Of a DNA stretch of 64,000 nt, positions 6,088 to 8,700 are shown one piece after another. The DNA is from Candidatus Pyrohabitans jungbluthii (GTDB lineage Archaea; Hydrothermarchaeota; Hydrothermarchaeia; Hydrothermarchaeales; BMS3B): assembly GCA_002010065.2 (NCBI GenBank), contig MTMD02000002.1, positions 248,001-312,000 of the forward strand, written 5' to 3'. Below the pieces are notes generated by a model that saw only the letters and a list, made by a program, of their open reading frames with translations, ran no database searches and was not told the DNA's origin. Positions within the stretch are counted from its first letter, which is position 1, and every line of letters starts with the position of its first letter. The position numbers were made by a program, and so were the translations under genes.

Positions 6088-6124
6088 GTTAATCCTTCTC
6101 CTTCGCAGCCTTTTATATGTTTGC

Positions 6125-6239
6125 GCAACCACAGTTGGTTGCATCCACATAATGTGGTATCTTCGATACCACTTTGAAGCAAGGAAAATAGCGGTATCGA
6201 GAGATACCGCAATATGTCGACCCAACCGACTGCGGTTGG
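6125..6239. repeat. Inverted pair of ~48-bp elements, each containing two hairpins
   Basis: Left arm 6125-6172 aligns at about 80% by eye with the reverse complement of 6191-6239; four perfect dyads with 3-4 nt loops. Confidence 0.85.
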
Positions 6240-6280
6240 CGCTGCAAAAATTTATATCCCTGCAAGGCTATTTCTTTGCT

Positions 6281-8599: not shown

Positions 8600-8700
8600 A
8601 TAGGGGAGCCTTCCCCTCCCCTATCACCCCTTCCGTACCGAAATAGGGGCGCTGCACCCCCTATTACCCCATCCGAACCAAATAGGGGCAACATACCCCT
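8600..8700. repeat. Three tandem copies of repeat family R1
   Basis: ATAGGGGAGCCTTCCCCTCCCCTATCACCCCTTCCGTACC-GAA-ATAGGGGCGCTGCACCCCCTATTACCCCATCCGAACC-AA-ATAGGGGCAACATACCCCT. Confidence 0.8.

Follow-up and report, generated by a model that had tools for sequence, protein, structure and literature searches.

The double hairpins beside aroC in the analysed stretch of Pyrohabitans DNA (64,000 nucleotides, hereafter the window) represent a dispersed, non-coding repeat present in two inverted copies, not an aroC switch. The repeat is probably a non-autonomous DNA mobile element, moved in trans by a putative integrase or transposase and settling mainly beside tRNA genes. The family looks undescribed; no literature describing it was found among open-licence papers.

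A unit consists of hairpin B, a fixed 11-nt linker and hairpin A, and the window carries one unit on each strand between aroC and a 45-aa zinc-finger gene (Table 1). The four perfect dyads read here in an earlier note are all exact and lie at the positions it gave, its A-B-B'-A' layout with equal linkers on both sides is borne out from the sequence, and the TATA-like boxes lie outside the element on each side, as it had placed them. The arm similarity, put by eye at about 80%, was recovered by alignment: set against the reverse-complemented right 49 nt, the left 48 nt agree in 39 of 49 columns (80%) with one gap, and the alignment score of 28 compares with a best score of 5 in 1000 dinucleotide shuffles. 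Model R1, a covariance model of the unit built on long-loop units only, matches the left unit, read from B to A on the minus strand, at 6125-6174 (51 bits, E 3.2e-12) and the right unit at 6189-6239 on the plus strand (62 bits, E 3.2e-15). These are the only two units that it finds in the 64-kb window.

Table 1. Features of the inverted pair and its surroundings (positions in the window)
Feature	Position	Strand	Remark
aroC start ATG	6087	-	
aroC TATA-like box	6111..6119	-	outside element; kept in element-free G003
Hairpin A, left unit (GCAACCA-CAGT-TGGTTGC)	6125..6142	-	perfect 7-bp dyad
Linker, left unit, 11 nt	6143..6153	-	same length in 55/58 aligned units
Hairpin B, left unit (GTGGTATC-TTC-GATACCAC)	6154..6172	-	perfect 8-bp dyad
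Spacer between inverted units, 18 nt	6173..6190	.	sequence reading
Hairpin B, right unit (GCGGTATC-GAGA-GATACCGC)	6191..6210	+	perfect 8-bp dyad
Linker, right unit, 11 nt	6211..6221	+	
Hairpin A, right unit (CCAACCG-ACTG-CGGTTGG)	6222..6239	+	perfect 7-bp dyad
Zinc-finger gene TATA-like box	6251..6259	+	outside element; kept in G003
45-aa zinc-finger ORF start	6281	+	

The window also holds other strong perfect dyads (505-529, 574-612 and 8600-8665; ATAGGGG...CCCCTAT, CCGGAAGC..GCTTCCGG and CGGGTAAC...GTTACCCG). They resemble short repeats of the GTCACCC/GGAAGC type that lie next to several copies of the element in the genome, and are probably further repeat families.

The earlier note had offered three readings of the pair, namely a shared operator, a BIME-like REP pair and a MITE-like remnant. 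An operator or regulatory array common to aroC and the zinc-finger gene would suit the position between divergent TATA boxes and the conservation of the dyads, but it is very improbable. The orthologous locus of the congener G003 has no unit and keeps both TATA boxes, which lie about 20 bp apart there as against about 130 bp in the window's own genome (G000), and the remaining copies of the unit stand at tRNA genes and unrelated genes. At the same locus, G004 carries three units, U1, U2 (inverted) and U3, and its U2 is flanked by a 24-bp repeat formed from U1 and U3. Together, the empty site in G003 and the three units in G004 argue against a required operator, and the operator reading at aroC was rejected because of the former. 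Regulatory co-option in G000 may nonetheless have occurred. What stands of the three readings is the mobile one, in view of the many genomic copies, the empty orthologous site and the target duplications at other copies; neither the operator nor strict REP membership is supported.

The window pair matches U2 and U3 of G004. Probably one unit was inserted, nested, within an older one, after which U1 was lost from G000; the order of events may have been another. The same nested arrangement of U1, inverted U2 and U3 occurs at a second locus in G000, G001 and G004 (L142 571-889, L118 and L129), upstream of another gene and with an additional insertion within the loop of hairpin B.

The search of the genome and its relatives with blastn and a covariance model, which the earlier note had proposed for separating a repeat family from an operator, returned many copies, the outcome expected of a mobile or repeat family. 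Further copies were found by blastn in G000 (2.0 Mb, 99.95% complete), and R1 counts 13 units there, 11 in G001, 4 in G002, 15 in G004 and zero in the congener G003. Units also occur in six further genomes of the class, so that 10 of 23 class genomes are carriers by R1. Most of the relatives are fragmented metagenome assemblies, and copies at contig ends are therefore incomplete. Unit lengths range from ~60 to 190 nt, with a single form of ~60 nt, a long form of ~140 nt in Pyrohabitans and some nested copies. Many Pyrohabitans copies have this long form, with ~80 nt extra upstream, including a third, G+C-rich hairpin (CCAGGGGAGGGG...CCCCTCCCCTT) that begins a few nucleotides past the tRNA discriminator base.

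Outside the class, six genomes gave matches (per-genome E 3e-8 to 1e-4; 249 genomes searched), which are weaker than those within it. In four of these genomes hairpin A directly abuts the 5' end of a tRNA gene (Pro, Ala, Pro and Val), and exact tRNA adjacency is no part of the model. A second match in G138 sits 112 nt upstream of tRNA-Gly, and the G151 unit sits at the beginning of a gene read as rpl10e, between copies of a 48-bp repeat with 96% identity. Besides records of Pyrohabitans and Hydrothermarchaeota, a pattern scan of genome contigs gave five from bacteria, probably by chance. Five pattern scans of IMG/VR and searches of phages and plasmids gave no hits, no longer copy was found, and a viral or plasmid source was dropped on these null searches.

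The preference for tRNA genes is strong. Nine of the 47 tRNA matches in G000 have a copy immediately downstream of them (truncated in two cases, Pro-CGG and Arg-TCT), and over all genomes 36 of 60 units lie within 150 nt of a tRNA gene. These units are co-oriented with the tRNA, save one that was assigned to a spurious ARAGORN call overlapping tRNA-Val. Target duplications were sought in the 53 class units by comparing the 70 nt past hairpin A with the 260 nt ahead of hairpin B. Direct repeats of 14-57 bp were detected, with 28 of the 53 units scoring at least 14 against a maximum of 12 in the control, which was the reversed flank and not a full shuffle. The repeat begins 0-12 nt past hairpin A in 27 of the 28 scoring units (0-8 nt in 26), and a different repeat was picked up in the remaining one (L137); the left copy of the repeat ends 0-107 nt ahead of hairpin B.

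The duplicated piece is the target's own end, that is, the 3' part of a tRNA, the 5' part of a tRNA or the end of a protein gene, and each target (Gln, Val, Leu, Lys, Glu, Ser, Ile and histidine kinase) has its own piece. In Pyrohabitans the duplication spans tRNA positions 57/58-73 (Gln, Val, Leu, Lys, Glu, Ser). In G010 it is a 29-bp piece of tRNA-Lys from the T-arm to the gene end, in G011 and G017 the 5' ends of tRNAs (14-21 bp), and in G015 ~50 bp at the ends of histidine-kinase genes. In nested copies, the direct repeats consist of halves of another unit. Congeners differ in occupancy at individual targets: tRNA-Ser(CGA) is filled in G001 and empty in G000, and tRNA-Val(CAC) is filled in G004 and empty in G000. 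At tRNA-Gln(TTG) of G004 (L128) two units stand in tandem, and after each of them the tRNA 3' end is repeated, an arrangement that, judged from its sequence, is repeated insertion at one site. Two further pairs share their distal tails. The units at Val-TAC and Val-CAC of G004 (L125 and L126) have a distal tail in common down to a shared substitution, GGCTCA, and two units of G015 at different targets (L192 and L133) have one distal tail in common. In both cases the tail seems to have travelled or been copied together with the unit.

These junctions also bear on the main rival explanation, in which tyrosine recombinases integrate very small elements whose attachment-site ends are the units. 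The target would then be made whole by a gene tail that the element brings in, with the partial copy past hairpin A left as the native remnant. It is the main rival because archaeal tyrosine recombinases use the same tRNA parts, the tails apparently travel (in the two cases above) and a provirus of G000 relies on this tRNA segment as well. The 3' parts of tRNA genes serve archaeal tyrosine recombinases, and the 5' half serves pTN3-like integrases (PMC8371274), and here too the duplicated piece spans a tRNA loop to the gene end. The block of gene-end identity between the junctions is present, with the geometry of a 38.7-kb provirus in G000 that has the same repeat, from the T-loop to the 3' end, at tRNA-His. 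We regard attachment-site ends as possible but rather doubtful. Tails specific to each of at least seven kinds of tRNA would call for as many versions of attP, no copy contains an integrase gene, and the tyrosine-integrase profile PF00589, present in G000, has no match in the carriers G011 (93% complete), G006 (99%) and G017. In addition, the tRNA-His provirus is without a unit.

The provirus itself (contig C6 of G000, ~36304-75069; L224-L226) is contractile-tailed, with terminase, tail sheath, baseplate and integrase genes recognised through PHROGs. It is integrated at tRNA-His, and its far end has an 18-20 bp repeat from the T-loop to the 3' end. It was considered as the parent element and rejected, as the stretches covering it hold no unit.

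The stems bear on how the hairpins are maintained. Across the 58 units of the alignment, pairing holds in 97.2% of stem cells, and double changes occur in 12 of 15 stem pairs (136 cells), values reached by 0 of 500 shuffles and leaning toward pairing since the alignment was fitted to the structure; the paired stem changes that had been remarked on in the window are thus real. The stem cells comprise 794 Watson-Crick, 12 G-U and 9 A-C pairs. A one-strand RNA is expected to tolerate G-U above A-C. The balance of G-U and A-C and the lack of strand bias in the wobble pairs mean that DNA hairpins fit better than RNA, which suggests that the palindromes are maintained as DNA. The unit has no match in Rfam, and a known RNA family was rejected on this ground. 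A C/D-box or hammerhead motif (a UGAUGA-like linker) was dropped because the linker keeps only TG..GA across the units.

A non-mobile structured non-coding RNA, or an element for processing the leader or trailer of tRNAs, would account for the co-orientation of nearly all tRNA-linked units and for the exact abutment of hairpin A on the tRNA 5' end in other archaea. Such an RNA is improbable, however, as presence and absence differ between congeners, targets are duplicated, copies are nested or stand at protein-gene ends, and both the G-U strand bias and an Rfam match are missing. In a SINE-like retroposon, reverse transcription at a nick in the target would copy an RNA that terminates in hairpin A, which predicts that the 3' end is constant and that the 5' end and the duplications vary. 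The junctions agree with this: the one at hairpin A is constant, the left one varies and includes a few extra nucleotides, and the duplications measure 14-57 bp. Such a retroposon is nevertheless highly unlikely: no reverse transcriptase (PF00078) was found in any class carrier, including the 99.95% complete G000, and the stems have no excess of G-U over A-C. Retroposition, attractive by its junctions, was rejected on these two points.

Searches for other enzymes covered the five genomes of the genus. The Y1/RAYT transposase (PF01797) is absent in all five, and no Cas1 above the cut-off was found in G000 or G002-G004. The sole Cas1 of the genus (G001, L156) lies between genes read as cas4 and cas2, in an apparent cas4-cas1-cas2 adaptation cassette that has no Cas1 counterpart in the four other congeners. 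G007, a member of the same family, has thirteen Y1 transposase matches (13 places, L161-L168) and zero double-hairpin units.

A trans-acting DNA integrase that makes a long, variable duplication is the most likely agent. Supplied in trans, such an integrase or transposase would recognise the hairpin end as DNA and join the hairpin-A end at a preferred target point, namely position 57/58 in the tRNA T-loop, the tRNA 5' end or a T-arm-like dyad in a histidine-kinase gene, and the other end would be joined at a variable point. Joining would duplicate 14-57 bp, and the target gene would stay intact in one copy at the insertions that survive. For aroC and the zinc-finger gene, the window pair would have no required role in expression. 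Several observations count against a trans-acting integrase. Fixed-stagger transposases produce duplications of constant length, unlike the variable ones seen here, and no matching enzyme was found. The limit of the Pyrohabitans duplication nearly coincides with the 3' end of the tRNA, and this fits attachment-site ends too; a tail was apparently carried with the unit in the two cases noted (the valine tRNAs of G004, and L133/L192 of G015). Further, comparison of the hairpin flanks gave no flanking duplication at the window pair itself.

The double hairpins may, we suggest tentatively, belong to a widespread archaeal class of gene-free, hairpin-ended DNA that inserts at tRNA genes and T-arm-like dyads, duplicates a variable 14-57 bp and leaves the target intact, through an integrase outside the casposon Cas1, Y1, reverse transcriptase and common tyrosine families. 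In Hydrothermarchaeota, the repeat, presumably moved in trans, would be a very small mobile element with tRNA genes as its preferred home, and its insertion geometry, from the T-loop to the 3' end or from the 5' end to the D-loop, is unlike that of casposons and the usual transposons. If this holds for the units of other archaeal lineages, they would represent an old, overlooked mobile element whose integrase is to be sought. There is also a caution here, in that a tidy inverted pair of hairpins between divergent promoters need not mean an operator.

Among known systems, casposons similarly insert at the 3' end of archaeal tRNA genes, leave the gene unbroken and make duplications of similar length. 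Casposon duplications have a median of 15 bp and overlap only the last 4-7 nucleotides of the tRNA (PMC4046053). They run beyond the tRNA, whereas the entire duplication here lies within it (57/58-73). The genus lacks casposon-type Cas1 and the units lack polB and terminal inverted repeats; with no Cas1-solo and the wrong geometry, a casposon derivative was rejected. Archaeal elements moved by tyrosine recombinases (SSV, pTN3, pT26-2 and pNOB8 types; PMC8371274) likewise repeat a 3' or 5' part of the tRNA on both sides and restore the gene. The present units differ in being only ~60-190 nt long without an integrase gene, and in using many types of target, each with its own tail, some in carriers without a detectable recombinase (PF00589).

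With REP and BIME sequences the family shares hairpins as ends, an intergenic position, and occurrence as singles and inverted pairs. One end of a REP palindrome bears a GTAG or CGTC tag (PMC3733652). By eye, no such tag was seen in the units, which start with TAGCGG or TGGCGG after CA. The family differs further in that its genus is without Y1 transposase and in its long target duplications, which IS200/IS605-type transposition does not make; REP/RAYT membership was rejected for want of a visible tag and of Y1 in the genus. The units resemble MITEs in being short, non-coding, multicopy, presumably moved in trans and flanked in about half of cases by a target duplication: dispersed gene-free copies, empty orthologous sites and target duplication in 28 of 53 units were all seen. 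They depart from MITEs in having a two-hairpin unit at one end in place of classical terminal inverted repeats, in duplications that vary from 14 to 57 bp, in the strong preference for tRNA genes and in the lack of any parent element found. We class the double-hairpin family with MITE-like mobile repeats; its target and its duplication geometry are unusual.
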